NCBI RefSeq assembly: GCF_029223865.1
Contig: NZ_CP119520.1
Location: forward strand, 7,006,001 to 7,070,000
Length of the DNA stretch: 64,000 bases
Reading direction: 5' to 3'
DNA from: Telluria mixta
GTDB taxonomy: Bacteria; Pseudomonadota; Gammaproteobacteria; Burkholderiales; Burkholderiaceae_D
The stretch's first letter is position 1. Every line of letters starts with the position of its first letter. Under the pieces are notes generated by a model. That model was not told the origin of the DNA and searched no databases. It was given only the letters and a program-made list of their open reading frames with translations. Both the position numbers and the translations under genes were made by a program. Below, in pieces: positions 28,641 through 45,230 of the stretch.

Positions 28641-29987
28641 ATGAACATTCCGGCTAAGGTTTTATGGGGCGAAGGGCTGTTCCTGCGTCCCCAGCACTTC
28701 CAGCAACAGGACCGCTACCACGAAGCGCGCCTGAACGAGACGGCCAGCGCCCTGCATCCCTATTGCTGGGGCGTGCGCCGGCTGGCCATCGATACCGATG
28801 CGCTCAAGGCCGACATGCTGCGCGTGACCGACCTGGCGCTGATCTTCCCGGACGGCGACCTCGTGCGCGCGCCGGACCAGGATCCGCTGCCGGCGCAGGT
28901 GCGCCTGGACGAGCTGCCGCCCGACGTCCAGACGATCACCTTCCACGCCGCCCTGCCCGTGCTGAAACCGCACGGCGACAATTGCGCCGAGCGGGGTGCG
29001 ACGCGGCCCGACGCCCGCTTCGGCCAGCGCGAGCACGACACCCAGGACCTGTTCAGCCAAGCCGCCCCGGCCCCGGTGGCCTACCTGACCCGCACGGTGC
29101 GCCTCGTGTCCGAACTCGACGCGCTCGACGCCTACGACAGCTTTCCGCTCGTGCGCCTGCAGCGCGTGCCGACGGGCGGCTTCGAGATCGACCCGGCGTT
29201 CACGCCGCCCAGCCTGTCGATCGCGGGCGCCCAGGGCCTGCACGCGCGCCTCGTGCGCCTGATGGAAAAACTGCTGGCCAAGGTGAATGCGCTGTACGGC
29301 CATTACCGCGAACCGGGCCGGCATGTCGTCGAGCTGCGCGGGGGCGACGTCGCGTCGTTCTGGCTGCTGCACACGGTCAGCACGGGCTATGCGGCGCTGA
29401 CCCATTACCTGTCCCACCGGGAACTGCATCCGGAACGCCTGTTCCAGGAACTCCTGTCGCTGGCGGGCGGCCTGATGACGTTTTCGCGCACGGCCCGGCT
29501 GGAAGACCTGCCGGCCTATGCGCACCAGGATCCCGGACCTGCGTTCGCCCGCCTGGACGGCATCCTGCGCGAGCTGCTCGACACCGTGATCTCGTCGCGC
29601 TATTTCGCGATCGCGCTGTCGAACGACCGCCCTTCGTATCATCTGGGCGCACTCGACTCCGGCAAGATCAATGTCCAGACGACCCTGTACCTGGGCGTGG
29701 CCGCCGACCTGCCGGCGCTGCAACTCGTCGACATCGTCCCGCTGCGCTTCAAGATCGGCGCCCCGGAAGACGTCGACAAGCTGGTGCTGACCGCCATGCC
29801 CGGCGTGAAGCTGACCCACGCGGCCCAGGTACCCAGCGCGCTGCCCGTGCGCCCGGACATGGTGTATTTCGTGCTCGACAACCGGGGCGTGCTGTACGAC
29901 AGCATGCTCAAGGCGCAGGCCATCTCGATCTATGTCCCGAACGGTATCCGTGACCTCAAACTCGAACTGATTGCGATCGCAGCATGA
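28641..29987 (+). CDS. tssK: Type VI secretion baseplate protein TssK
   Basis: Connects the T6SS baseplate to the membrane complex; homologous to phage receptor-binding proteins. The 448 residues start with the family signature KVLWGEGLFLRPQHFQQQDR. Other landmarks are the LRLVSELDALDAYDSFPL-like segment, SRYFAIALSNDRPSYHL and the terminal YVPNGIRDLKLELIAI. AAGGGAGG lies at 28630-28637, four bases before the ATG. Its stop overlaps the tssL start (ATGA). Confidence 0.96.
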   Translation: MNIPAKVLWGEGLFLRPQHFQQQDRYHEARLNETASALHPYCWGVRRLAIDTDALKADMLRVTDLALIFPDGDLVRAPDQDPLPAQVRLDELPPDVQTITFHAALPVLKPHGDNCAERGATRPDARFGQREHDTQDLFSQAAPAPVAYLTRTVRLVSELDALDAYDSFPLVRLQRVPTGGFEIDPAFTPPSLSIAGAQGLHARLVRLMEKLLAKVNALYGHYREPGRHVVELRGGDVASFWLLHTVSTGYAALTHYLSHRELHPERLFQELLSLAGGLMTFSRTARLEDLPAYAHQDPGPAFARLDGILRELLDTVISSRYFAIALSNDRPSYHLGALDSGKINVQTTLYLGVAADLPALQLVDIVPLRFKIGAPEDVDKLVLTAMPGVKLTHAAQVPSALPVRPDMVYFVLDNRGVLYDSMLKAQAISIYVPNGIRDLKLELIAIAA

Positions 29988-30745
29988 ACCATCCCGTCGA
30001 ACGGCGCGCCGCGCCCTCCCAACGCGGCGCCGCCGGCACCGCCCCCGCCTCCCTTGTCGATCTGATGTACGAGGGTTTCTATGCCCTGTTCCTCCTCAAG
30101 AGCGGTTGCGGTCCGCAGGACCAGGCCGCCTTCGCCGACCGCATGACCGGCTTCCTCGGCGAAGTCGACCGCAGCGCCAAGTCGCTCGGCATTCCCGCCG
30201 ACGACGTGACGGCCGCCAAATATGCATTCTGCGCGGCCGTCGACGAGATCATCCTCGGTTCCGACTACGCCATCCGCGAAGCGTGGGAGACCCGCCCGCT
30301 GCAGTTGCGCCTGTTCGGCGACCAACTGGCCGGCGAACATTTTTTCCAGCGCCTGGAAGACTTGCGGGCGAAAGGCAGCGCGCACCTGCAGGCGCTCGAG
30401 GTCTACCACCTGTGCCTGCTGCTCGGCTTCCAGGGCCGCTTCGCGCTGGACGGCCGGGACAAGCTGAACTACCTGACAGCGCGCCTGGGCGACGAAATCG
30501 CCCGCATGCGCGGCAAGAGCCGCACCTTCGCCCCGCATGCGGAGCGGCCCGACCAGGTCGCCCACAAGCTTGGGAGCGATACGTCGCTGTGGGTCCTGTG
30601 CGGCGTATTCGCGCTGGCCGGCCTGGGCGCCTATCTCGGTTACCGCGGCGCGCTGGGGCGCGAGACGGATCGCGCGCTCGCCAGTTACAACGACCTCGTC
30701 AAGCTGCCGCCGCGGTCGGCCAATGTGACGATCACGCTGCCGTGA
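29984..30745 (+). CDS. tssL: Type VI secretion inner-membrane protein TssL (DotU family)
   Basis: Tail-anchored inner-membrane partner of TssM. The 253-residue protein has the DotU cytoplasmic domain (SLVDLMYEGFYALFLLKSG, then KYAFCAAVDEIILGSDYA and LLLGFQGRFAL) and a single C-terminal transmembrane segment (about residues 205-222, WVLCGVFALAGLGAYLGY). There is no C-terminal OmpA domain; a separate OmpA-like gene in the locus may supply peptidoglycan binding. The last 61 bp overlap the 3' end of the convergent glycosyltransferase gene. Confidence 0.94.
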   Translation: MNHPVERRAAPSQRGAAGTAPASLVDLMYEGFYALFLLKSGCGPQDQAAFADRMTGFLGEVDRSAKSLGIPADDVTAAKYAFCAAVDEIILGSDYAIREAWETRPLQLRLFGDQLAGEHFFQRLEDLRAKGSAHLQALEVYHLCLLLGFQGRFALDGRDKLNYLTARLGDEIARMRGKSRTFAPHAERPDQVAHKLGSDTSLWVLCGVFALAGLGAYLGYRGALGRETDRALASYNDLVKLPPRSANVTITLP

Positions 30746-32025
30746 TGCGCGAAGGCCTGCATGACGAGCGCGACCGCCGCATCGACGCCATGCTCGTTTT
30801 GCATCGCGCCGGCGACGTCCGCGGCCCGCGCCGCCATCCCAGGTGACGCCAGCACGTGACGGAGCCGTCGTGCCAGCGCGGGCGCCGTTACATCGCGACG
30901 CCTGGCCGGCCTGCCTGCGATCCCCAGGCGGCGTAATTCCCTGCCCCAATGCTCCTGCTCGCTGATGTTGGCCACGACGACCGACGGCTTCCCCGCCCGC
31001 ATGACCGACTGCGTCGTCCCCGCCCCGCCGTGATGCACGACCGCGCGGCAATGTGGGAAGATGGCATGGTGCGGCGCCGCCGCGACGTACAGGATGGCGT
31101 CATCCGATTGGAATCCGCACGTTGCGGCCGCGGGCGCCTGGATGATGGCACGGCATCCAGCCAGACGCGCCGCGTCAGTCAGCAGATGCAGGGCCTTCGC
31201 CTGTCCCGCAGGGTCGCGTGGCATCCAGCTGCCGAACGTCATGTAGACGGGCGCGTCGCCGGCGGCGAGGAAACGGGCGAAGCCCGGCGGGACCTGCCCT
31301 TCCATGGCCAGGTTCGGCGTATCGAGGAATCCGCACACGCGGACGGACGCCGGCCAATCCGGCTGCGCGCGGCAGATCGTGGGACTCACGGCGGCCAGCG
31401 TGAGATGTGGCGAGATCCAGCCCTGCGTGACGACGTCCCGCAGCGGCGGCAAGCCGAGCTGGCTGCGCAACCGGTCGGGATAGTGCTTCAACGTGCGATT
31501 GAGCAGCGTCCGCGTCAGCCACCACAGCATGCGATGGATGCGCTTGCCGGCGCCGGGCATGGTCAGCGGGTGATCGAAGTCGCTGGGGATCGCCGCGTGC
31601 GACAACAGGACGCTGACATACGGCCTTCCCGCCGCCTCCGCCGCGGTCTGCAACGGGTGCATGAAGTAATGGCCGATCAGCACGTCGGACTCGGCGCACA
31701 AGCGGCGCGCGGCGTCGAACATGGCATCTTCGACCGGGTCCAGGCACAGCCGCAGGACGGTCGCCATCTGCGTCATGGGATTGCGGATGGCGTAGGCCGT
31801 CCGGCCGACGGTTTCCTGCTGTTCCGGTGTGAGCACGGGCGACGCGACGACGCTGATCTTCACGCCGCTCGCCGACACCATGCCTTCGTAGGCATCACTG
31901 TCGACGCAGGTGATCACGAGGTGAACGTCGTTGCCCGCCGCCTGCAGGCCCTCCGCGAGCGCCAGGAAGGGCCGGATATCGCCGTGGCTGCCCCACGTTT
32001 GTATACCAATTTTCATACGCGCCAT
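30685..32025 (-). CDS. UGT-type glycosyltransferase (GT1-like)
   Basis: A 446-residue glycosyltransferase of the GT-B, macrolide/sterol UGT group. The N-terminal MKIGIQTWGSHGDIRPFLAL has the GDxxP acceptor-side signature. The C-terminal nucleotide-sugar site is FPHCRAVVHHGGAGTTQSV followed by ISEQEHWG. It probably moves a sugar onto a small hydrophobic acceptor or lipid; donor and acceptor are unknown. Start ATG at 32025 or 32016; neither has a good ribosome-binding site. It lies 46 bp after the OmpA-like gene in the tssM operon direction and its 3' end overlaps tssL by 61 bp. Such a gene is not a standard T6SS component. Confidence 0.85.
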   Translation of the reverse strand: MARMKIGIQTWGSHGDIRPFLALAEGLQAAGNDVHLVITCVDSDAYEGMVSASGVKISVVASPVLTPEQQETVGRTAYAIRNPMTQMATVLRLCLDPVEDAMFDAARRLCAESDVLIGHYFMHPLQTAAEAAGRPYVSVLLSHAAIPSDFDHPLTMPGAGKRIHRMLWWLTRTLLNRTLKHYPDRLRSQLGLPPLRDVVTQGWISPHLTLAAVSPTICRAQPDWPASVRVCGFLDTPNLAMEGQVPPGFARFLAAGDAPVYMTFGSWMPRDPAGQAKALHLLTDAARLAGCRAIIQAPAAATCGFQSDDAILYVAAAPHHAIFPHCRAVVHHGGAGTTQSVMRAGKPSVVVANISEQEHWGRELRRLGIAGRPARRRDVTAPALARRLRHVLASPGMAARAADVAGAMQNEHGVDAAVALVMQAFAHHGSVIVTLADRGGSLTRSL

Positions 32026-32071
32026 TGCAAGGATGTCAACCTTGCAAATATACAACAAAAAGGCGTGGGGA

Positions 32072-32869
32072 TTATTGGACGACCTTGAATTCGATGCGAC
32101 GGTTGCGGGCCCTTCCTTCGGGCGTACGGTTGTCCGCCACGGGACGATCCGGGCCTTCGCCGGACACGGCGACCATGTCGGGCTTGACGCCGCGCCCGAC
32201 GACGTACGCTTTCACGGCTTCCGCACGTGCCTGGCTGAGCGACAGATTGCCGGCGCGCGAGCCGGCATTGTCCGTATGGCCGATGACTTCCACCCGCTTG
32301 TCCTTCAGGCGCAGCAGCGCCACGCTCATCTGGTCGAGAATGGCCTTGCCGGAATCCGTCAGCGTGGCCTGGCCGGATTCGAATTCGATGATGCGGTTGG
32401 CCAGCGCCGCATCCAGCATCCCCTGCTCCGAGGCCGCCACGCGCAGGCCGTTGTTGACCGTGTAGCCGGGATCGAGCGCCAGCGCGATGTCGCTCGCGAT
32501 CTGCGTGCGCTGGACTTCGCTGGCAACGTCGCCGCGCAGGCTGACGCTGGTGCCGTCGACCTGCAACTGGCCGCGGCTGATCAGCTTCAGGTTCGGGCCG
32601 ATCAGCTTGCCGACATGGTCGTTCCAGTTCGCCGGCATCGAGACCCGGCCGACCGCAAGCTGGTCCACGATCCGGTCCGCGCCGTACACCGTGCGCAGGC
32701 GGGCCAGCAGCGCGGCCTTGCTGGCGTCGTCGGCGACCGTGCCGGACACGACGATGGGTGCAGCAGGCGCGGGCGCGGGCGCGGGCGTGGGCTGGGGTTG
32801 CACCTGCGCCAGCGAGGCGATGGGGGTGCACGCGAGGGCGGCATAAAGAATAAATGTCTTCGGCATCAC
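32072..32869 (-). CDS. OmpA-family protein, T6SS-associated (TagL-like role)
   Basis: Exported 265-residue protein. A signal peptide (to about residue 21, SLA) and a Pro/Ala-rich linker (QPQPTPAPAPAPAAP) precede one or two BON-like segments (about residues 40-150). The C-terminal OmpA domain has FESGQATLTDSGKAIL, EVIGHTDNAGS and NRRIEFKV. OmpA domains bind peptidoglycan; in T6SS loci such proteins anchor the membrane complex to the wall. TssL here lacks this domain, so the protein may take its place. Its start overlaps the tagF stop (ATGA). Confidence 0.88.
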   Translation of the reverse strand: MMPKTFILYAALACTPIASLAQVQPQPTPAPAPAPAAPIVVSGTVADDASKAALLARLRTVYGADRIVDQLAVGRVSMPANWNDHVGKLIGPNLKLISRGQLQVDGTSVSLRGDVASEVQRTQIASDIALALDPGYTVNNGLRVAASEQGMLDAALANRIIEFESGQATLTDSGKAILDQMSVALLRLKDKRVEVIGHTDNAGSRAGNLSLSQARAEAVKAYVVGRGVKPDMVAVSGEGPDRPVADNRTPEGRARNRRIEFKVVQ

Positions 32870-33813
32870 GGCGCGGCTCCGATAAAGGTTTTCAGGAACA
32901 GTTCGTGCGCGAGCCGCAGGGGCAGCGCCGGCTGTTCGAGGTAGCTGGCCAGCGCACGCACGTCGACGTCCAGGCCGAGCTGCTCGTCGATCCAGGCATT
33001 GTCCGCGAGGTGCACCTGCTGGTCGGCGGCCACGATCGGATCGATCAGGGCATGGAGCGTACCGGCGGCCTCCCCGCCGAAACCGACGACGAGTGCCGGA
33101 TGCTCGCGGACGCGAGTGAGGAACAGCACGAGGTCGAAGCCGCTGCGCCGGATGAATGGCAGCACCAGTTCCAGCCAGAAGGCGGCCGCCGCATAGCGGT
33201 GGGCACCCGTGCGCGGCAGCGGCAGCACGAGGCTCTTGTGCAGGCTGGCGGGACGGCTGTGCATCACGGGCTGCAGCAGCAGGCCGAGCCCGAGGATCAT
33301 CCGGTTGACCGCCAGTTCAAGTTGCGCCGTCAGTTCGCCGACGGTGGACAACGCCAGATAGCTGTCCAGCGCGGCATCGTGTTCGCCCAGCGTGACGGGA
33401 GCGTCCGCGATCGCCTGCAGGTAGGCACTCGGATCGCTGCTGCCCAGCACCTGGGGTGCCATGCCCTCGAGGTAATCCCACAACGGCGCGAAAGCGAGCG
33501 GGCAGCGCGCGACGAAGCCGGCGGGATCGGGCACGTCGACGGTGCGCATCATCAGGAACGGGAAGCGGCGCCCCGAGCGGTCGTGGCTCGCGACGAGGTG
33601 GCCGGCGACGGCATGGCGCCGGTCCGGCCCCACGAAGGCGAAGCTGGCCGGGGCCATCGCATCATAGTTCAGCTTCCAGCGTGCATCGGACGGCAGCCGC
33701 GTCATGACCTGCGCAATCCAGTCGTCCAGCATGCCGATGACGGGCTGGTCGTCGGCCAGCTTGACGAAGTCGCTGTGCGCCGGGATCTTGCCGAAATAGC
33801 CGATGCGGCTCAT
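32866..33813 (-). CDS. tagF: Type VI secretion-associated protein TagF
   Basis: TagF proteins repress T6SS firing post-translationally in pseudomonads and Agrobacterium, through Fha or the PppA/PpkA pathway. The 315-residue protein starts with the family signature IGYFGKIPAHSDFVKLA and RLPSDARWKLNYDAM, within the DUF2094 domain (about residues 1-145). The C-terminal half is extended. The ATG at 33813 is the family start; upstream open frame is tssM shadow. No fha, ppkA or pppA genes are in the window, so its partner is unclear. It lies 38 bp after tssM. Confidence 0.9.
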   Translation of the reverse strand: MSRIGYFGKIPAHSDFVKLADDQPVIGMLDDWIAQVMTRLPSDARWKLNYDAMAPASFAFVGPDRRHAVAGHLVASHDRSGRRFPFLMMRTVDVPDPAGFVARCPLAFAPLWDYLEGMAPQVLGSSDPSAYLQAIADAPVTLGEHDAALDSYLALSTVGELTAQLELAVNRMILGLGLLLQPVMHSRPASLHKSLVLPLPRTGAHRYAAAAFWLELVLPFIRRSGFDLVLFLTRVREHPALVVGFGGEAAGTLHALIDPIVAADQQVHLADNAWIDEQLGLDVDVRALASYLEQPALPLRLAHELFLKTFIGAAP

Positions 33814-33851
33814 TGCGCGCGCGCGCGGGGCGGCACGGTTCAGGGCGCGGT

Positions 33852-36800
33852 TCACTGCGCCGCTCCCGCCAGCGCGGGACCCGCGCCACTGGTGCCCACC
33901 GCGCCCGCGCGGCCGACGACGGCGTCCGGCAGGCGCAGGCCGCGGAAGCCCTGGCTGGCCTGGGCGTTGCCCCCGGACGTGTCCGTGCTGCTGACGCGCT
34001 TCAGGTTCACGGCCACCGAGACGTTGCCCGCATTCCAGCGCAATTCGTGCGTGCCCGCGTCCAGCCGTTTCTTCGTTGCCGCCTCGATCATCTTCTGCAG
34101 ACCGAACTCGCCCGGCTCGTTGAACAGCTCGACCGTGCGGCCATCGAACGTGACGGCGCTGATCTTCGCGCCGCTGCTGCCCTGCGGACCGGGATGCACC
34201 ATATTGACCCAGGCCGGTGGCGTGTTCCGGTAGCGCAGCTGCTGGCCGTCGATCTCGATCGTGTATTCGGTGACGCCGGGCGCGGTCAGCGGCAGCAGCT
34301 GGAACACGGTCTGCGGGCCGCCGCCGGCCGCCACGCCGTTGGCCGACAACGGTGCCACCCAGCCGGGGAAGCCGCTGACCACCTGCGGCGCCAGCGTGAT
34401 GCCGATGTCGGCCCAGGTACGGCTGCTGAGCACGTCGCCGCGGCGCACGACGAGCGGCCCCATCGTCGTACCCACGAATTTGGCGACGACGCCGTCCGGT
34501 CCGAACACCTGGCCGATCTCGGCCGGCGTGGCCTGGATCTGGGCGGAGGGTGCGAACGGGTACTTGGCGGCCAGCGTCTTCTGGAACGGTTCGACGACCT
34601 GTGCCTGCCACGTCCGGTTGATCTCCGATTCCGACGGCAGCACGATCATCGCGAACGTCTGCACGAGCGGACGCACGAGCAGCGGACGCAACATCTGCTT
34701 CTGCGTGTCCGTCATCCCCGTCAGCATCTGCTCGTCGACGTATTTCAGCGCATCGGCCAGCTCGGAACCACTACCCTCCAGCGTCTGCTGCATCAGCTGC
34801 CTGGCGCCGGGGCCGGGATCGCCCTGGTTCTTCAACTGGTTCAGGCGGCTGCGCAGCTTCGACAACGCATCGAGGTAGCCCGTCATCAGCGACGCATCTT
34901 TTTCCTTGACCCCGACCAGCCGCGCGACCCCTGCGAACTCGCGGCCGACCGGACCGGCTGCCTGCACGCCACCGACCGGCAGCGGCCCCATCGCATCGGC
35001 CACCTGGCGCGCCTCGCTCGGCGCCTGACGCAACACCACTTCACGGAACCAGCCGGCGAGACCGCGCTTGAGCTTGACGGTGTCGACCCGGGCCTGCGTG
35101 GGATCGTCCCAGGCCGTCTGTTCGTGGACGGTCTTGAGCACTTTCGCGAGCGGCGAGGTCAGCGGATCGCCGAGGCGGTTCATCGCCTGCACGCTGGCGT
35201 CGAAGCCGTTGAGGTCGGCGATCGTCACGCCCTGCACGAACTTGCTCCATTCGCGCGCGTAATCGGCCTTGTACATCTCGATGAGCGCCTTCTGGATCTG
35301 CTCCGGGCTGCCCTCCAGCGTGAGGTCGTCCTTGGCGACGCTTTTCAACACCCAGTCGCTGCTCTGCAATTCGCGGGTCGATGCCTCGCGGATGGCGCCC
35401 TGGACGAATTTTTCCCACGCATCGCGGGTGTACGCGCCGCTGACGGCGTAACTGCCGACGACCAGCGCCTGGTCCTGCTCGCCGACGATGCGCGCCACCG
35501 TCACGCCGGCGTAACGCGTCGACGCGCGCGTGCGGATGTCGGCATACACGCGCTCGCGCGCGGGGGTGCCGCGCACGACGCGGCGCAGATTCTCGCGGGC
35601 GGTGTCCAGCAGGCTGAGCTTGGGCGTGATCTGGGGCCACGCCTGGTCGTCGATATGGGCCAGCACGAACGTCAGCTGGCGCTCGGCGCTGCGGATCATC
35701 TGCTCGCGCGGCATGGCGCCCCGGTTCGCTTCGAGCCAGCCGCGCCAGAAGCGCGTCAGCTGGTCGTTCAGGTGGCCGGGCTCGGCATGGCTCCTGTCCG
35801 CCAACATCAGGTATGTCTTGAGCGCGTTGTAGGCGTCGCCGACGTTCGTGGCCGAGACGTCCTGGTACGGCTGCCCGGGTTTGGCGGCCGGCGTCGCGCG
35901 CACGTTCGGGTCGAGCTGCGACGCGTTCGCATTCATCTCCGTCAGCAGGTTTTCCAGCGCGCCCGCCACCGGCTGCACCATGACTTCGCGCACGCCGGCG
36001 AAATACTCGTCGCGCAGCTTGCGCTCCAGCGCTTCGCCCTGGTACAGGCCGAACGCCAGCGCCCACGGACGGTCCTGGCGATATTTATCGAGCTGCTCGA
36101 TACGGTCCTGCAGGATATCGAGCCCCTCCAGCCGCGCCTGCAGATCGGTCCGGCCGGCCTGCAGCTTCATGACCTTGTCCAGGTCGGCCTTGACGTTCGC
36201 GACCAACTGCCGGTTCCCCATGTACGACCAGCTCCAGCCGCCCAGTGCACAGCCGAGCAGCAGGGTCGCGGCGAAGAACGCGCCGATCTTCATGCGTGTG
36301 GCGGCCGGGCTCGTATAGCGCTTGACCAGGTCGCGGTCGGCGAAGATCACCTTGCGGAACAGCTGCAACAGGAAAAAGCCGGACTGCTCCGTGCCGGGCG
36401 CCGCGTCCTCGCCGGCCTTCTCGCCGAACGGACGCAGCTGCAGGTCGAACCTCCCCGCGACGCGCCGTGCCGACTGGTTCTCCACGCTGCCCTCCTGCAG
36501 GGCACTTGTGAAATAGAAGCCGCGAAACACGGGCTTGAATTGCCACGTGTTTTCCTCGAACAGGGTAGCCAGGAAGGCGCGCAGCTGGGGCTTGAGCGCG
36601 GCGAATTCGAGCGGGAACGTGAATACGCCGGGACGCAGGGCAGTGCTGCGGTTGCCCGCCATGCTGGCCAGGCTCATCTCCTTGAGGCCGTCGTGCAGTT
36701 CATCGAAATGCTGGTCGAAGAACGCCAGCACGTCCTGCGGCGTGCTGCGCCGGTTGTAGCGCAGGGTCGCGCCCCAGACGCGTTCGCGTTCCGTCCGTTC

Positions 36801-37610
36801 GCAGTCCTGGAAAAAATCGGCGAAGCCGGCGATCAGGTCGGCCTTCGTGAACATCACGTACACGGGCGCGTGGACGCCCAGCCGTTCGGTCAGCTCCTGT
36901 ACCCGCGTGCGCAGGCTCTTGGCCAGCTCGATCGAGGCCTCGGGACTACCGCCGGCCAGCTCGGCGACGCTGACCGCGACCAGGATCCCGTTGATCGGGG
37001 CGCGGGAGCGGTGCTTGCGCAGCAGGTCGAGGAAGCTGAACCATTCGGCACGGTCCGCTTCGAATACGGAATAGCGCCCCGCCGTGTCGAGCAGGATGCC
37101 GTCCGTCGTGAAGAACCAGTCGCAGGTGCGCGTGCCCCCGACGCCCTGCACGGCCTTGCTGCCGGGGATCGGGAACGTCAGCCCGGAATGCTTGATCGCG
37201 CTGCTCTTCCCGGCCGCCGGGTTCCCGATGATCATGTACCACGGCAGCTCGTACAACGCCGCCGCGCCGCGCGTCAGGCCCAGCTTGGAGGTCTTGATCG
37301 TATTGATCGCCTCCAGCATGCCCTTGCGCAGCACGGCCGCGTCGTTGCGCGCCGCCTGGGCCTTGCCGTCGGTCTCCGCGCCGGTCAGCATCGCTCCGGC
37401 CAGCCGGCTGGCCGCGCGCTTGCGCAGCCAGGCACGGACAAACCAGGCGATGCCCCCCGCGCACATGAGGAGCAGGCACAGCAGCGCGGCCCAGATGAGT
37501 GCAGCATCGGGGGATTCCGCGCCCAGCAGCACGAGTGCCGCAAGCACGCCGATGCCGATCACGGCCAAAACACGTCTGTCGGTGAGGAACTGCCAGAGTC
37601 GGGCCATCAT
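33852..37610 (-). CDS. tssM: Type VI secretion membrane protein TssM (IcmF family)
   Basis: Core of the T6SS membrane complex, spanning the inner membrane and reaching TssJ. The 1252 residues show two N-terminal transmembrane helices (about 14-31 and 37-60), a cytoplasmic NTPase domain with Walker A GNPAAGKS (129-136), and a third transmembrane helix near residue 450. A long periplasmic part follows with the C-terminal beta domain (VTFDGRTVELFNEPGEFGL). The NTPase motif is intact. The start ATG at 37610 is the only one giving the full transmembrane hairpin. It follows the M15 peptidase gene by 96 bp and leads into tagF. Confidence 0.96.
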   Translation of the reverse strand: MMARLWQFLTDRRVLAVIGIGVLAALVLLGAESPDAALIWAALLCLLLMCAGGIAWFVRAWLRKRAASRLAGAMLTGAETDGKAQAARNDAAVLRKGMLEAINTIKTSKLGLTRGAAALYELPWYMIIGNPAAGKSSAIKHSGLTFPIPGSKAVQGVGGTRTCDWFFTTDGILLDTAGRYSVFEADRAEWFSFLDLLRKHRSRAPINGILVAVSVAELAGGSPEASIELAKSLRTRVQELTERLGVHAPVYVMFTKADLIAGFADFFQDCERTERERVWGATLRYNRRSTPQDVLAFFDQHFDELHDGLKEMSLASMAGNRSTALRPGVFTFPLEFAALKPQLRAFLATLFEENTWQFKPVFRGFYFTSALQEGSVENQSARRVAGRFDLQLRPFGEKAGEDAAPGTEQSGFFLLQLFRKVIFADRDLVKRYTSPAATRMKIGAFFAATLLLGCALGGWSWSYMGNRQLVANVKADLDKVMKLQAGRTDLQARLEGLDILQDRIEQLDKYRQDRPWALAFGLYQGEALERKLRDEYFAGVREVMVQPVAGALENLLTEMNANASQLDPNVRATPAAKPGQPYQDVSATNVGDAYNALKTYLMLADRSHAEPGHLNDQLTRFWRGWLEANRGAMPREQMIRSAERQLTFVLAHIDDQAWPQITPKLSLLDTARENLRRVVRGTPARERVYADIRTRASTRYAGVTVARIVGEQDQALVVGSYAVSGAYTRDAWEKFVQGAIREASTRELQSSDWVLKSVAKDDLTLEGSPEQIQKALIEMYKADYAREWSKFVQGVTIADLNGFDASVQAMNRLGDPLTSPLAKVLKTVHEQTAWDDPTQARVDTVKLKRGLAGWFREVVLRQAPSEARQVADAMGPLPVGGVQAAGPVGREFAGVARLVGVKEKDASLMTGYLDALSKLRSRLNQLKNQGDPGPGARQLMQQTLEGSGSELADALKYVDEQMLTGMTDTQKQMLRPLLVRPLVQTFAMIVLPSESEINRTWQAQVVEPFQKTLAAKYPFAPSAQIQATPAEIGQVFGPDGVVAKFVGTTMGPLVVRRGDVLSSRTWADIGITLAPQVVSGFPGWVAPLSANGVAAGGGPQTVFQLLPLTAPGVTEYTIEIDGQQLRYRNTPPAWVNMVHPGPQGSSGAKISAVTFDGRTVELFNEPGEFGLQKMIEAATKKRLDAGTHELRWNAGNVSVAVNLKRVSSTDTSGGNAQASQGFRGLRLPDAVVGRAGAVGTSGAGPALAGAAQ

Positions 37611-39347: not shown

Positions 39348-39423
39348 GGCGGCAATCCCGGAAAACCACGCCGCAGGCCATCACGACACCGAAACTGCTG
39401 GGCCATCGTCGCCGGCACCGTTA

Positions 39424-39443
39424 TACTGTACAAAAGTACAGTT
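39424..39443 (+). promoter_or_regulatory. LexA (SOS) box overlapping a -10 element
   Basis: The 20-bp site contains CTGT-N8-ACAG (39426-39441) in the perfect dyad ACTGTAC-AAAA-GTACAGT, close to the gammaproteobacterial LexA consensus. A TATACT -10 hexamer (39422-39427) overlaps it, so bound LexA would block RNA polymerase. The ATG of the nuclease gene is only nine bases after the box. A clear -35 element was not seen. Confidence 0.85.
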
Positions 39444-39451
39444 GGTGCGGT

Positions 39452-41113
39452 ATGACGATGATCAGAGTCCTGGAAAACGAGTTTTATTATCTGGATAACT
39501 TCCAGCGCGTGCTGGACTGGATCGCCGAGCGCTACGCCGACCTGCTCATCGACGAGGAACATGCGTTCATCGCCGCCTTCCCGCAATTGCCGCAACCGGC
39601 CCGCGCCCTGTTCGTGCGGATGGTCATGCGCAAGGGCACCCTGTTCCGCGCCAGCAAGCTCAACTACGCAGAGATCGGCTGCCCGCGCGCAGCGACAGAG
39701 GCGCTGCTGCCCAGCGGCTGGATCGAGTCCGATCCCGTCCTGACGCTCGACGAGTTGTTCGACCTGCTGTCGAAGCCGGAACTGGCCGAGGCGTTCGGCC
39801 TGACGGGCGCGCAGAAGAGCGCGCGCAAGGCCGACCAGCTCGAAGCGCTGCGCGCGGATCCTGCGCACGAAGCTCAGCGTCCGTTCTCGCATTGGCACGG
39901 CAACTGCGACGACCTCGCATTGCGCCTGCTCGTACAACCGCTGTGCGACCGCCTGCGCCTCATCTTCTTCGGCAACCTCTCGCAGGACTGGACCGAGTTC
40001 GTCCTGTCCGACCTGGGCCTGTTCCGCTACGAGCGCGTCGAATTCTCGCCGGCGTCGCGCGGCTTCCGGGCCCGCCAGGACATCGACCACTATCTCGACC
40101 TTCACGCGTGCAAGGAGCGCTATTACGCGGGCGAGGCGGCACTGGACGTGCTGGCCGACCTGCCCCGCCATGCGTTCGGCAACGACTGGCTCGACAGCCG
40201 GCGCGAACGCCTCCTGTTCCAGCTTGGCCAACTGCTCGAAAAAGAGCGGGACTGGGACAATGCGTATGCCGTGTATGTGGATTGCCGCTATCCGGGCGCG
40301 CGCGGACGGGCGATCCGCGTACTGGAAAAGCACGAGAAGTTCGACGCAGCCTATGCCCTGTTCGAGACGGCGCAGCAAGCCCCGGAAAGCGAGGCGGAAC
40401 GCCAGCACCTGCTGCGCCTCGGCCCGCGCCTGGCACGCAAGCTGGGCCACCCGAAGGGCCCGCCGCGCCGGGCGACGCCGGTCGCGCGGCTCGACCTGAA
40501 CCTGCCGCTGCCGGGTGGAGAATGGCGCGTCGAAGGCGTCGTGCTGGCGCATCTGGCGCGCGACGACGCACCGGTCTTCTACGTCGAAAACACGCTGGCC
40601 AACACGCTGTTCGGGCTGTTGTGCTGGCGCGCCATCTTCGCGGCCATTCCAGGCGCCTTCTTCCACCCGTTCCACCGCGGCCCGGCCGACCTGTTCGCGG
40701 CCGACTTCTACCGGCGCCGCAAGGACGATTTCAACGCCTGCCTCGCACTGCTGGACGACGGCCGCCACCGTGCCGCCATGCTCGCGACGTACGAAGAGAA
40801 GGCGGGCCTGCAATCGCCGTTCGTCGCCTGGGACTGGCTCGACCGCGACATCATCGAACTGGCGCTGGACTGCATCCCGGCCGCGCACCTGAAACTGTGG
40901 TTCCGCCGCATCCTGCAGGACGTGAAGGAAAACCGCACGGGCTTCCCCGACCTGATCCAGTTCTGGCCCGGCGAGCAGCGTTACAACATGATCGAGGTGA
41001 AGGGTCCGGGCGACCGCCTGCAGGACAACCAGCTGCGCTGGATCGATTACTGCGCCGAGCACGGCATGCCGATCACGGTGTGCTATCTGCAATGGGAACA
41101 AGCGGCGGCATGA
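39452..41113 (+). CDS. FAN1-like VRR-NUC domain nuclease
   Basis: Predicted structure-specific DNA nuclease, the bacterial counterpart of FAN1, which cuts 5' flaps and helps repair interstrand crosslinks. The 553 residues have the FAN1 layout: an N-terminal helical and SAP-like part (FVRMVMRKGTLFRASKLNY), a TPR-like middle (about residues 230-330), then the C-terminal VRR-NUC domain. Its catalytic residues appear in GFPDLIQFWPG, IEVKGPGDRLQDNQ and WIDYCAEHG. The ATG at 39452 is used; the frame upstream runs through the LexA box. The stop overlaps the helicase start (ATGA). SOS induction is predicted. Confidence 0.9.
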   Translation: MTMIRVLENEFYYLDNFQRVLDWIAERYADLLIDEEHAFIAAFPQLPQPARALFVRMVMRKGTLFRASKLNYAEIGCPRAATEALLPSGWIESDPVLTLDELFDLLSKPELAEAFGLTGAQKSARKADQLEALRADPAHEAQRPFSHWHGNCDDLALRLLVQPLCDRLRLIFFGNLSQDWTEFVLSDLGLFRYERVEFSPASRGFRARQDIDHYLDLHACKERYYAGEAALDVLADLPRHAFGNDWLDSRRERLLFQLGQLLEKERDWDNAYAVYVDCRYPGARGRAIRVLEKHEKFDAAYALFETAQQAPESEAERQHLLRLGPRLARKLGHPKGPPRRATPVARLDLNLPLPGGEWRVEGVVLAHLARDDAPVFYVENTLANTLFGLLCWRAIFAAIPGAFFHPFHRGPADLFAADFYRRRKDDFNACLALLDDGRHRAAMLATYEEKAGLQSPFVAWDWLDRDIIELALDCIPAAHLKLWFRRILQDVKENRTGFPDLIQFWPGEQRYNMIEVKGPGDRLQDNQLRWIDYCAEHGMPITVCYLQWEQAAA

Positions 41114-43380
41114 GTGACGCGGAAAACAGCGCGCGCTACGTCGTATCCGTGCGTGCCCTGTGCGAGTTCACGGCCAAGCAGGGCGACCTCGACCTGCGCT
41201 TCACGCCGTCGCCCACGGCGCAGGAAGGTATCGCGGGTCATGCCGTCGTGGCATCCCGCCGCGACGACAACTACCGCAGCGAAGTGACGCTCGCGGGCGA
41301 TTGGGGCCCGCTGCACGTGCGTGGACGGGCCGATGGCTACGACCCCGACCGCAACCTGATCGAAGAGGTCAAGACGTACCGCGGCCAGTTCGCGCGCATT
41401 CCGGACAACCACCTGCGTCTGGCCTGGGCCCAGTTGCGTGTCTACGGGCACCTGATGTGCGAGGAACTCGGCATGGACGACGTCAACCTGGCGCTCGTCT
41501 ACTTCGACATCGGCACCCAGCAGGAGACCGTGCTGCGCGAAACCCGCACCCGCGCCGATCTCGCCGCGCTGTTCGAAGACCAGTGCCGCCGCTTCGTCGC
41601 CTGGGCCGAGCGGGAACTCGCGCACCGCGGCGCGCGAGACGCCGCGTTGACGGCGCTGCGCTTTCCGCATGCCAATTTCCGTCCCGGCCAGCGCCAGCTC
41701 GCGGAAGCCATCTTCCGCGCGAATTCGGGCAAGCGCTGCCTGCTCGCCCAGGCCCCGACCGGCATCGGCAAGACCGTCGGCACCCTGTTCCCGGTGCTGA
41801 AGGCGGCCCCGGGACAGGGTCTCGACAAGGTGTTCTTCCTGGCCGCCAAGACGCCGGGACGCCAGCTCGCGCTGGACGCGGCGGCAACACTCAAATCCGG
41901 CGGCACGCTGCCATTGCGCGTGCTCGAACTGAGCGCGCGCGACAAGGCCTGCGAGCACCCGGACAAAGCCTGCCATGGCGATTCCTGCCCGCTCGCCCAG
42001 GGCTTCTACGACCGCCTGCCGGCCGCGCGCGAAGCGGCGGCGAATGCGGACATGCTCGACCGCGCCACGTTGCGCGAAATCGGCCTCGCGCACGACGTCT
42101 GTCCGTACTACCTGGGCAGCGAGATGGTACGCTGGAGCGACGTCGTCGTGGGCGACTACAACTACTGGTTCGACGGCGGCGCGATGCTGTACGCGCTGGC
42201 GCTGGAGCGCGGCTGGAAGGTCAGCGTGCTGGCTGACGAGGCGCACAACCTGGTGTCCCGGGCACGGTCGATGTACACGGCGACGCTGCAACGCGCGGAC
42301 CTGCGCGCGGCACGGGCCATCGCCCCGCCTGCGCTGCACAAGGCACTCGACAAAGTGAAACGCGCGTGGACGGACGTGAGCAAGTCCGCGCCCCTGCCCT
42401 ACCAGGTGCTGGACGGCCTGCCCGACAAATTCCTGAACGCGCTGCAGGGCGCGGCCAGCGCCATCACGGAGCACATGGCTGCGTTTCCGGTCCCGTTGGA
42501 TCCCGAGCTGCAGGATTTTTATTTCGGCGCGCTGCAGTTCGGTCGCCTCGCGGAATCGTTCGGCGAGCACTCGCTGTTCGACGTCACGCGCGAGGACGAA
42601 CGCAACACGACGCTCTGCATCCGCAACGTCGTCCCCGCCCCGTTCCTCGGTCCGCGCTTCGCATACGCCCATTCGACGACGCTGTTTTCCGCAACCCTGA
42701 GTCCCTGGCATTATTTCGCCGACCTGCTCGGCATGCCGGCGGACACAGCGTGGATCGACGTCGATTCGCCGTTCACCGCGAGCCAGCTGGACGTGCACGT
42801 CGCGCACGGCATCTCCACCCGCTACCAGGCGCGCGGCAGCTCGCTCGCGCCGATCGCGACCCTGATGGCGGACCAGTACCACGAGAAGCCCGGCAACTAC
42901 CTCGCGTTCTTTTCCAGCTTCGACTATCTGCAGCAGGTGGCGGACCGCTTCGAGCGCGACCATCCGGGCATTCCTGTCTGGAGACAGGCGCGCCGCATGA
43001 GCGAGCCGGAACGGGCGGATTTCCTCGCGCGCTTCGTCGCGGGCGGCCGCGGCATCGGCTTCGCAGTGCTCGGGGGCTCCTTCGGCGAAGGCGTCGACCT
43101 GCCGGGCGAGCGTCTCATCGGCGCGTTCGTCGCGACCCTCGGCCTGCCGCAGCTGAACCCCGTCAACGAACAGCTGCGCCAGCGCATGCAGGCGATGTTC
43201 GGCGCCGGCTACGACTACACCTATCTCTATCCCGGCATGCAGAAGGTCGTGCAGGCGGCCGGCCGCGTGATCCGCACGGAGCAGGACCGCGGCGTCGTGT
43301 GGCTGATCGACGACCGTTTCGCGCGGCCCGAAGTGCAGGCCCTGCTGCCTGCGTGGTGGCACGTCGAGAAAGCGGCTTAG
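41110..43380 (+). CDS. RecB/Cas4-like nuclease fused to XPD/DinG-type Fe-S helicase
   Basis: A 756-residue DNA repair helicase. The N-terminal 150 residues hold PD-(D/E)xK nuclease motifs: D75 in GRADGY, E86-V-K88, and Q108-x3-Y112, the QxxxY of the RecB/Cas4 group. The superfamily 2 helicase follows: Walker A APTGIGKT (215-222), four cysteines C281, C288, C293 and C331 placed as in the XPD/DinG iron-sulfur cluster, and DEAH at 376-379. The late motifs GSFGEGVDLPG and QAAGRVIRTEQDRG (motif VI) are present. It is translationally coupled to the FAN1-like nuclease and ends four bases into the convergent response regulator gene. Confidence 0.9.
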   Translation: MSDAENSARYVVSVRALCEFTAKQGDLDLRFTPSPTAQEGIAGHAVVASRRDDNYRSEVTLAGDWGPLHVRGRADGYDPDRNLIEEVKTYRGQFARIPDNHLRLAWAQLRVYGHLMCEELGMDDVNLALVYFDIGTQQETVLRETRTRADLAALFEDQCRRFVAWAERELAHRGARDAALTALRFPHANFRPGQRQLAEAIFRANSGKRCLLAQAPTGIGKTVGTLFPVLKAAPGQGLDKVFFLAAKTPGRQLALDAAATLKSGGTLPLRVLELSARDKACEHPDKACHGDSCPLAQGFYDRLPAAREAAANADMLDRATLREIGLAHDVCPYYLGSEMVRWSDVVVGDYNYWFDGGAMLYALALERGWKVSVLADEAHNLVSRARSMYTATLQRADLRAARAIAPPALHKALDKVKRAWTDVSKSAPLPYQVLDGLPDKFLNALQGAASAITEHMAAFPVPLDPELQDFYFGALQFGRLAESFGEHSLFDVTREDERNTTLCIRNVVPAPFLGPRFAYAHSTTLFSATLSPWHYFADLLGMPADTAWIDVDSPFTASQLDVHVAHGISTRYQARGSSLAPIATLMADQYHEKPGNYLAFFSSFDYLQQVADRFERDHPGIPVWRQARRMSEPERADFLARFVAGGRGIGFAVLGGSFGEGVDLPGERLIGAFVATLGLPQLNPVNEQLRQRMQAMFGAGYDYTYLYPGMQKVVQAAGRVIRTEQDRGVVWLIDDRFARPEVQALLPAWWHVEKAA

Positions 43381-44126
43381 CGCATCAGGTCGCGCACCTT
43401 CTGGTAGCCGCTGCGGCTGATCGGAATGCGCGCACCGGACTTCAGCACGGCGCAGTGGCCATCCTTCCCGGTCGGCTCGATGCGCGCGATGGTGCCCAGG
43501 TTGACGATGTACGACCGGTGCACGCGCAGGAAGGCCTGCGGATCCAGCTGGCTTTCCAGTTCGGCCATGCGCTGGTTCTTCAGCCACTGCCGGCCTTCCG
43601 AGCAGATGGCCACGTAGTCGTCCTGGGCCTCGATGTAGTCGACGCGCGCGACGGGGATCACCTGCACGCGTGCGCCGTCGCGGATCAGGATGCGTTCGAG
43701 CGGCTGGTGGCGCGCCTGCGCCTCGCTCACGAGCGCGCGCATCGCCGCCTCCCCCTGGGTCGCGGCCGCGGGCGCGGCGAGGCGTTCGCGCGCGTGCGCC
43801 AGCGCCTGCGCGAGACGCTCGCGCGTGAACGGTTTCAAGAGATAGTCCAGCGCATGGACGTCGAAGGCGCGCAGCGCGAACTGGTCGTAAGCCGTGACGA
43901 ACACGTAGTGCGTCTTCGCGCCGGCCAGTTCGACGACTTCGAAGCCGTCCAGCTTGGGCATCTGGATGTCAAGGAACACGAGATCGGGCGCCAGCTCCGC
44001 GATCGCCTTCACGGCCTCGAAGCCGTTGGCGCATTCGCCGACGATCTCCACGTCGGCATGGGCCCCGAGATGTTCGCGCAGCACGGCGCGCGCCAGGGGT
44101 TCGTCGTCCACGATGATCACGCGCAT
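43377..44126 (-). CDS. LytTR-type response regulator
   Basis: Response regulator of 249 residues. The receiver domain has D7/D8, the phosphorylation site D53 (in VFLDIQMPKLDG), and K98 (YLLKPF). A linker leads to a C-terminal LytTR DNA-binding domain (IEAQDDYVAICSEGRQWLK, then FLRVHRSYIVNL). Such regulators (AlgR, LytR) control envelope and surface genes. It is the last gene of a four-gene operon, 3 bp after the histidine kinase stop. Its stop overlaps that of the helicase gene on the other strand. Confidence 0.94.
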   Translation of the reverse strand: MRVIIVDDEPLARAVLREHLGAHADVEIVGECANGFEAVKAIAELAPDLVFLDIQMPKLDGFEVVELAGAKTHYVFVTAYDQFALRAFDVHALDYLLKPFTRERLAQALAHARERLAAPAAATQGEAAMRALVSEAQARHQPLERILIRDGARVQVIPVARVDYIEAQDDYVAICSEGRQWLKNQRMAELESQLDPQAFLRVHRSYIVNLGTIARIEPTGKDGHCAVLKSGARIPISRSGYQKVRDLMR

Positions 44127-44129
44127 GCG

Positions 44130-45230
44130 TCAGGTCCTTTCGGGTTCAGGTTGGGGTTCGTCGGCCGTCACCGCCGGCAGCGCCAGCTCCACGATGAAGC
44201 GGCCGTCGCGCCGGGCCCAGTGCGCGCTCGCCTCATGCCCATGGTCCGCCGCCAGGCGCTGGCGCACGTTGACGAGGCCCAGGCCCGTGCCGCGTGCGCT
44301 GCCTGCGCCGTCGACGCTGTCGGGATCGACGTCGTTCTCCACGCGGATGCGCAGGATCGATCCGGCGCGCGTCGCCTCGATGCGTACGAGGCCCGTCTCG
44401 ATCATCTGGCCGATGCCGTGCTTGATCGCGTTTTCCACGAGCGGCTGCAGCAGCATCGGCGCCAGCAGGCACGCACCGGCGGCGGGATCAATGGCGGCCT
44501 CGAAGCGCAGCCGGTCGCCGTAGCGCACCTGCTCGATGGCGATGAAATGCCGTACGAGTTGCAGTTCCTGGTCGAGCGTCACCTTGCGGTCGGCCCGCAG
44601 GCCCAGCGTGTGGCGGAAGAACTCGGCCAGCTGCACGGTCATGGCGCGCGCAGCCGCCGGATCGAGCGACGTCAGCGCGCTGATCGAGTTCAGGCTGTTG
44701 AACAGGAAGTGCGGATCGACCTGGGCGCGCAGCATCCGCAGTTCGGCGTCCTGGGCCATCAGCTTCATCTCCAGGCGCTGCGTCTCGAGCTGGCGCACGC
44801 GTTCGGTCTCGATCAACAGGTAGTTCACGGCCGCCGCCAGGCCGTACAGGATCAGGCCCAGGCCGAACATCGATGCCAGCACGGGGCCGCTCGCGACGGG
44901 CACGTAAGCGTCCGGCGCGAGCGCGGCCAGGAGACTGTTCCAGACCGCGCCCATGCCGCACCACAGCCCGGAGACACAGGCCGCCGTCATGCCGACGCCG
45001 GCGGCGATGGCGAGCGGACGGCGCCGTCCCAGCGGGTACGCGCGGCACACGTAGTAAGCGGAAAAGCCCGCCGCGTACGCGTACCAGAGCGCCAGCGGTA
45101 CGGCGAACAGCACGCTCGCGCCCCAGCCCGCGCCGCTGACGGCCAGCATGGCCGCCAGCAGCAGGCCCAGCATCAGCCAGGCCAGCAGATAGAGCGCCGT
45201 CGCGCGCCAGCTCGCGAAGATGCCGTGCAC
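44130..45230 (-). CDS. LytS-family sensor histidine kinase
   Basis: Sensor kinase of 366 residues, partner of the LytTR regulator. Five or six transmembrane helices fill residues 5-160 with little extracellular loop. The His_kinase domain has AQVDPHFLFNSLNSISAL with the phosphorylated histidine, and a GHKL ATPase domain follows with LQPLVENAIKHGIG (N box) and GTGLGLVNVRQRL (G box). The small loops suggest that it senses something in the membrane, perhaps through the two LiaF/DUF5668-like proteins encoded just upstream. Confidence 0.93.
   Translation of the reverse strand: MHGIFASWRATALYLLAWLMLGLLLAAMLAVSGAGWGASVLFAVPLALWYAYAAGFSAYYVCRAYPLGRRRPLAIAAGVGMTAACVSGLWCGMGAVWNSLLAALAPDAYVPVASGPVLASMFGLGLILYGLAAAVNYLLIETERVRQLETQRLEMKLMAQDAELRMLRAQVDPHFLFNSLNSISALTSLDPAAARAMTVQLAEFFRHTLGLRADRKVTLDQELQLVRHFIAIEQVRYGDRLRFEAAIDPAAGACLLAPMLLQPLVENAIKHGIGQMIETGLVRIEATRAGSILRIRVENDVDPDSVDGAGSARGTGLGLVNVRQRLAADHGHEASAHWARRDGRFIVELALPAVTADEPQPEPERT

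Follow-up and report, generated by a model that had tools for sequence, protein, structure and literature searches.

On the forward strand of a 64,000-nucleotide stretch of the genome of Telluria mixta, a bacterium of soil (contig NZ_CP119520.1, positions 7,006,001 to 7,070,000; hereafter the window, in whose own numbering positions are given), a gene for a bacterial FAN1 nuclease, akin to the FAN1 enzyme of human crosslink repair, is followed by a gene for a nuclease-helicase, and a LexA-type box overlaps the promoter in front of them (Table 1). The initial annotation of this DNA had read the pair as a damage-induced repair operon. It described the box over the -10 element, the ATGA by which the two genes overlap, a VRR-NUC domain in the first protein, and a RecB/Cas4-like nuclease joined to an XPD-type Fe-S helicase in the second. 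All of these elements were borne out, the observation being confirmed as a whole and its interpretation supported.

Table 1. Features of the FAN1/nuclease-helicase operon (positions in the window)
Feature	Position	Strand	Basis
Possible -35 element CTGGGC, spaced 18 nt from TATACT	39398..39403	+	CTGGG recurrent in relatives
-10 element TATACT, two bases common to the LexA box	39422..39427	+	layout kept in 60/66 named relatives
LexA box CTGTACAAAAGTACAG (CTGT-N8-ACAG)	39426..39441	.	motif, position, conservation; lexA box of the T. mixta genome one base different
FAN1 gene, bacterial FAN1 nuclease, 553 aa	39452..41113	+	Pfam; PDB 4r89 match
FAN1 HTH domain	39482..39727	+	PF21315, 130.2 bits
FAN1 SAP domain	39737..39895	+	PF18081, 64.5 bits
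VRR-NUC domain, catalytic D500, E515, K517	40757..41089	+	PF08774, 119.7 bits; motif positions; 4r89 alignment
ATGA shared by FAN1 stop and helicase start	41110..41113	+	sequence
Helicase gene, EndoDinG-type nuclease-helicase, 756 aa	41110..43380	+	Pfam; full-length match to 9kqh, Finegoldia magna DinG
N-terminal PD-(D/E)XK (RecB/Cas4-like) nuclease domain; H44, E58, D75, E86, K88, Q108-x3-Y112	41137..41643	+	invariant residues; PDDEXK_1 in relatives
Fe-S cysteines C281, C288, C293, C331	41950..42102	+	unchanged throughout the 60- and 39-sequence alignments

The box ends 10 bp before the FAN1 start. Its arms, CTGTAC and GTACAG, form a perfect dyad of 6+6 bases around an asymmetric central AAAA. 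In 43 of the 66 named relatives, CTGGG recurs at a distance of 15-35 nt before the box, and in 42 of the 66 its spacer to the -10 is 18 or 19 nt; a generic sigma-70 consensus scan returned no promoter at the operon and missed the CTGGGC element too. In the window, CTGTACAAAAGTACAG is the only exact CTGT-N8-ACAG, where 0.35 were expected from shuffles, and at least one such match arose in 32 of 100 shuffles. The single box is therefore not significant alone, and its significance comes from its position and conservation rather than from its frequency in the window.

That conservation is extensive. The exact box stands just upstream of FAN1 in 66/66 named relatives and occurs only three times elsewhere in those loci (737,524 bp). 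The named loci are partly the same as those of another set, taken from 30 of the 37 genomes of the genus, and locus L139 is a contig end with only the FAN1 start. In this other set, 28 of 30 loci carry the exact box and 29 the looser CTG-N10-CAG (about one expected from shuffles), counts that overstate independence because the genus loci are closely related. Outside the genus, where FAN1 genomes numbered 45, we examined 28 loci from genomes that also encode the helicase, plus eight from genomes without it; G075, G095, G170, G185, G218, G326, G332, G334 and G346 were left out of the locus reading. Among the 28, eight have the exact box and 22 have CTG-N10-CAG, compared with 0.9 expected from letter shuffles (largest count, 4) and 1 in the reversed control. 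In the genus that includes a close relative of Pseudomonas aeruginosa (g55, which would be Pseudomonas), loci were taken from 20 of 25 genomes; CTG-N10-CAG is present in all 20 and the exact box in six, and the helicase gene comes next in all 20. The close relative itself (G414, locus L140), whose FAN1 is 93% identical to that of P. aeruginosa (PaFAN1), carries CTGTATGCATGAACAG in front of FAN1, and its helicase gene follows immediately. Conservation of the operon box extends from relatives in Massilia to Burkholderia and to the genus of this P. aeruginosa relative. In four loci of a single family (L065-L068), the left half of the box is lost and the right half retained, reading roughly ATGAACAGT or ATGACCAGT, perhaps as a relic after a change in LexA specificity.

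The T. mixta genome encodes a LexA that uses this type of box: its lexA passes the TIGR00498 cut-off and is preceded, at 27 bp, by the exact box CTGTACAAAAATACAG, one base apart from that of the operon. Exact boxes lie 18-42 bp upstream of lexA, imuA, dinB and ruvC, and a box with a single mismatch stands before recA. Together with the conservation among relatives, this supports the LexA-type control proposed in the initial annotation, and the operon, with its box overlapping the promoter, is a probable member of the LexA (SOS) regulon. Open reading frames were listed near 35 of the 36 exact boxes in the genome; 17 of the boxes were picked by eye for closer inspection, and one protein was scanned at each of 10. 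Six of these were the products of lexA, imuA, dinB, ruvC and two radical SAM genes; the remaining four comprised a tyrosine recombinase, a manganese catalase, a protein of the PAP2 kind and a protein without a hit. The radical SAM genes, one of the PA0069 family and one UDG-linked, have their exact boxes 17 and 13 bp upstream (L184 and L013, respectively) and are likely further SOS genes, judging from these positions. Exact boxes also lie 16 bp before the tyrosine recombinase gene and 44 bp before the manganese catalase gene (L191 and L190).

The initial annotation had proposed to survey how often the two genes occur together. Both are present in 37/37 genomes of the genus, always adjacent, with gaps of -4 to 127 bp. 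In a phylum sample of 349 genomes, FAN1 was found in 47, the helicase in 35 and both in 30, 29 of which have them adjacent (gaps of -4 to 53 bp); the co-occurrence is strong (Fisher p 3e-26) when phylogeny is ignored. A few of the absences in these counts may be misses, since the phylum scans scored at most four FAN1 and three helicase candidates per genome; the helicase threshold in them was E 1e-30. FAN1 is partnered by the helicase in 65/65 evaluable named loci. The pair is patchy in the order to which T. mixta belongs, because 24 genomes from other families of that order (first draw) contained no FAN1 and only one full-length helicase. The survey thus favours the pairing, with FAN1 in 30 of the 35 phylum genomes that have the helicase. 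The "self-contained unit" of the initial annotation was upheld as regards pairing, 29 of 30 co-occurrences being adjacent, and was too strong as regards self-containment, because each gene also occurs without the other.

Genomes in which the genes are separated offer a clue to which partner leads. In G308, FAN1 and the helicase lie on different contigs, each with its own exact box. Two genomes without FAN1 (G314 and G384) have an exact box before the helicase, as do two Cupriavidus records and one Caballeronia record with no FAN1 within 2.5 kb; in Burkholderia stagnalis and B. arboris, the box precedes the FAN1-helicase pair. Among the plasmid records, of which six of eight were read (H5 and H7 being left out), the box is present in 5/5 from Burkholderiales, and the sixth, from Enterococcus, is without one. 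Excluding G308, five of nine helicases without an adjoining FAN1 have their own exact box, some of the five perhaps being close relatives. On the other side, none of the FAN1 genes in genomes without the helicase has a box (8/8 examined). As far as the sequences go, the SOS-type box follows the helicase rather than FAN1.

Regarding the proteins themselves, the first is a full-length bacterial FAN1. FAN1_HTH, FANC_SAP and VRR_NUC all exceed their Pfam cut-offs, and residues 7-549 match the PaFAN1 structure 4r89 (E 1.3e-186). The TPR region falls short by Pfam (TPR_7, 14.7 bits vs a cut-off of 27.9) and aligns to 4r89 throughout. The catalytic PD (499-500) and EVK (515-517) are intact, with the aspartate, glutamate and lysine of a FAN1 active site in place; the catalytic residues D507, E522 and K524 of PaFAN1 (PMC9635880) correspond to D500, E515 and K517 here. 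A motif pattern was matched in 111 of 113 loci, the misses being L055 and L064. PaFAN1 cleaves 5' flaps (PMC4103454, PMC9635880).

In the second protein, Pfam recognises DEAD_2 and Helicase_C_2, the helicase core contains GKT (220-222) and DEAH (376-379), and its fold resembles 9kqh, XPD and DinG. A Pfam scan of the Telluria sequence gave no hit for the N-terminal nuclease, for which the support is indirect. The nuclease residues and the four Fe-S cysteines listed in Table 1 are invariant in both a 60-sequence alignment (60-96% identity) and a 39-sequence alignment that reaches Firmicutes at about 30%. In 11 of the 39 family members PDDEXK_1 was detected at E 0.1 or lower, with 4.7e-6 as the best value; P0060 and P0328, both among the 39, had been chosen with the hit already known. 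Against PDB, the N-terminal family profile matched 9kqh and then, at E 0.0032, 4ic1, which we take to be a Cas4 structure; the following match (E 0.096) was unrelated. In a second structural comparison, matches besides 9kqh covered the helicase core only, and the evidence for the nuclease fold is therefore that of the motifs, the Pfam hits in relatives and the profile. Single-sequence folding of the isolated nuclease domain gave a predicted local distance difference test score (pLDDT) of 46.6, and that prediction was set aside.

A 2025 review (PMC11981726) characterises EndoDinG by the nuclease residues H, E, D, E and K and a CCCC Fe-S motif. The Telluria protein has this PD-(D/E)XK set, the four cysteines and a superfamily 2 (SF2) XPD/DinG helicase core, and by these features it fits the recently named class. 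It is neither DinG nor YoaA proper, with NCBIfam equivalog scores of 77 vs a cut-off of 598 for DinG and 84 vs 680 for YoaA; a separate true YoaA, scoring 877, is encoded elsewhere in the genome. Carriage as mobile element cargo was also rejected: no FAN1 relative was found in 50,697 phage records at E 1e-10, and the eight plasmid-record matches of the helicase at E 1e-60 were seven Burkholderiales replicons of 1.3-3.5 Mb and one Enterococcus record. As regards the closest structure, the crystallised Finegoldia DinG (PDB 9kqh) reads GRAAG where a 98%-identical natural relative reads GRADG. The aspartate occupies this place in 118 of 120 listed homologues, the other two being outside the search pattern, and we found no literature on the structure, which probably carries a nuclease-inactivating mutation.

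The closest characterised relatives agree with the Telluria operon in some respects and differ in others. PaFAN1 (PA1865; PDB 4r89) is a full-length homologue with the same catalytic PD...EVK, and in the relative G414 its counterpart likewise stands before the helicase; LexA control is, in the accessible text of a 2026 paper (PMC12796719), not recognised in P. aeruginosa. That text places PA1865 and PA1866 among 18 ultraviolet C (UV-C) induced genes under no known LexA-like repressor and reports that PA1865, which its citations identify as PaFAN1, is also induced by ciprofloxacin. PA1866 would be the helicase. LexA control of the operon would be the simplest account of the induction of both genes, with a P. 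aeruginosa box predicted from the 93%-identical relative, the closest match to PaFAN1 in the Pseudomonas comparison. The operon thereby suggests why DNA damage induces FAN1 in P. aeruginosa, a point that the paper left unexplained.

EndoDinG itself is represented in the review by a protein from Bdellovibrio, and Finegoldia magna DinG (9kqh) matches the Telluria protein over its full length; FAN1 and VRR are both absent from the review's main text, and its section on EndoDinG is silent on LexA and gene neighbours (PMC11981726). The Staphylococcus aureus exonuclease-helicase DinG is also a DinG-superfamily nuclease-helicase fusion; cells depend on it to resist mitomycin C and formaldehyde, and both of its activities are required (PMC12345164). 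It differs in having a 3'-5' exonuclease domain, and no FAN1 partner is named in the text consulted (PMC12345164). PA1044/PA1045 of P. aeruginosa is likewise a LexA-controlled DinG-superfamily helicase (PMC12796719). Those are, however, other genes, and the true YoaA of the Telluria genome lies apart from the operon. In eukaryotes, the same three activities (5'-flap nuclease, XPD-family helicase and RecB-type nuclease) are found in FAN1, FANCJ/XPD and DNA2. There they reside in separate proteins, and the analogy is functional only. No earlier report of a LexA-controlled FAN1/EndoDinG operon was found in the open-licence PubMed Central literature; both protein families and SOS operons were already known, and it is their combination and its control that were not found there.

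We consider it likely that the two genes form an SOS operon under LexA whose products, FAN1 and EndoDinG, act at blocked or crosslinked forks. LexA would bind the box over the -10 and keep the operon off. On damage, RecA on single-stranded DNA would promote LexA self-cleavage, releasing one transcript for both proteins. EndoDinG, predicted to be a 5'-3' Fe-S helicase of the XPD type joined to a nuclease resembling those of Dna2 and Cas4, would load on exposed single strands at the fork and then open the duplex and trim the displaced strand. A few bases beyond the junction, FAN1 would incise the 5' flap or fork and then nibble across, so that the crosslink would be unhooked or the stalled fork cleared for recombination. 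Physical cooperation of the two enzymes, the polarity of the helicase and the lesion acted on are predicted parts of this scheme. Crosslink or stalled-fork processing appears the likeliest function because the S. aureus nuclease-helicase gives crosslinker resistance and PaFAN1 cleaves 5' flaps. Shared SOS control, conserved among relatives, would assign bacterial FAN1 and EndoDinG a definite role open to experiment, and suggests that bacteria keep an emergency kit for DNA that is crosslinked or stalled. That the two proteins assemble into a single physical machine, corresponding in bacteria to the eukaryotic FAN1/FANCJ/DNA2 activities, and provide an overlooked, dedicated SOS-inducible crosslink-unhooking or fork-clearing route beside UvrABC in beta- and gammaproteobacteria, is a speculative extension that we regard as rather unlikely.

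Several results weigh against a jointly controlled pair. The genes are separable, FAN1 occurring without the helicase in 17 phylum genomes and the helicase without FAN1 in 5 of 35. Some copies are damaged: helicases have an in-frame stop in G020 and G252 and are split over two frames in G110, and FAN1 has an in-frame stop in G269 and two frames in G419. Box conservation is incomplete and, as noted, partly a matter of close kinship. The genus locus L041 has neither the exact box nor CTG-N10-CAG upstream of FAN1, CTG-N10-CAG is likewise missing from 6 of the 28 phylum loci examined beyond the genus, and in L070, L072 and L073 the match is loose, with a left half other than CTGT, and may be chance. 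No box lies within 200 bp upstream of the helicases of G079, G266, G284 and G041; L196 (G079) does have an exact box, within the start of the helicase coding sequence and not before it. Of nine upstream open reading frames at these four loci (at most three per locus, some of them perhaps not real genes), one matched a glutathione S-transferase and one TctC, and the rest had no match. PA1865 is reported to be repressed by hydrogen peroxide (PMC12796719), and the S. aureus protein is reported not to be LexA regulated (PMC12345164). The separability bears most directly on the reading in which the operon is SOS controlled and the two enzymes work in separate pathways, as regulon neighbours with only the switch in common. 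Helicases with their own box and no FAN1 (or none within 2.5 kb), FAN1 genes on their own and the two boxes of G308 suit it well. Against it stand the close adjacency of the pair, with gaps within the ranges given above across the phylum and the genus, and the presence of VRR nucleases upstream of helicases in the T1p21 subfamily too (PMC9635880). We treat it as a serious possibility, if not the favoured one.

The remaining explanations fare worse. That the box is the site of another, LexA-like repressor or a chance palindrome is favoured by the lack of any genome-wide excess of CTGT-N8-ACAG (36 places vs 44 for the reversed control). The repeated occurrence of the box at one place in the named relatives, the single base separating it from the lexA box and the excess of CTG-N10-CAG over shuffles outside the genus make this improbable. 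A role of the helicase as a CRISPR type IV CasDinG, or as some other part of an anti-phage system, is suggested by the PADLOC model PDLC01439 ("typeIV_DinG"), which scores 407.5 bits on it, and is very improbable: the eight flanking proteins examined gave no PADLOC hits at E 0.001, and six of them are type VI secretion proteins, a sensor kinase, a LytTR regulator or without a Pfam hit. The constant FAN1 partner, itself without a relative at E 1e-10 in the phage records, also speaks against it. The N-terminal nuclease and the four Fe-S cysteines fit EndoDinG instead, and CasDinG was rejected on both neighbourhood, with no type IV CRISPR-Cas locus among the flanking proteins, and architecture. 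Finally, the genes for DotU, TagF and IcmF/TssM of a type VI secretion system lie directly upstream, TssM is present in 40/66 named loci, and VRR-Nuc effectors exist (PMC9635880), which might make FAN1 an effector of the TseV kind. We give this hardly any credence and rejected it: FAN1 is full length, carries FAN1_HTH and SAP domains in place of a PAAR-like N-terminal domain, and is followed by the helicase and preceded by the LexA box, whereas TssM went undetected in the flank available for 26/66 named loci.

Some features of the surroundings are of interest in themselves. PDLC01439 may overcall CRISPR type IV, since it scores so highly on an EndoDinG whose examined neighbours include no CRISPR gene. 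The type VI secretion genes occupy 29984-37610 of the window, in a neighbourhood that is partly conserved and has no evident functional link to the operon. On the other side, a LytTR response regulator and its sensor kinase (43377-45230) are convergent with the helicase gene and overlap its end by 4 bp, and a LytTR relative is present in 56/66 named loci.

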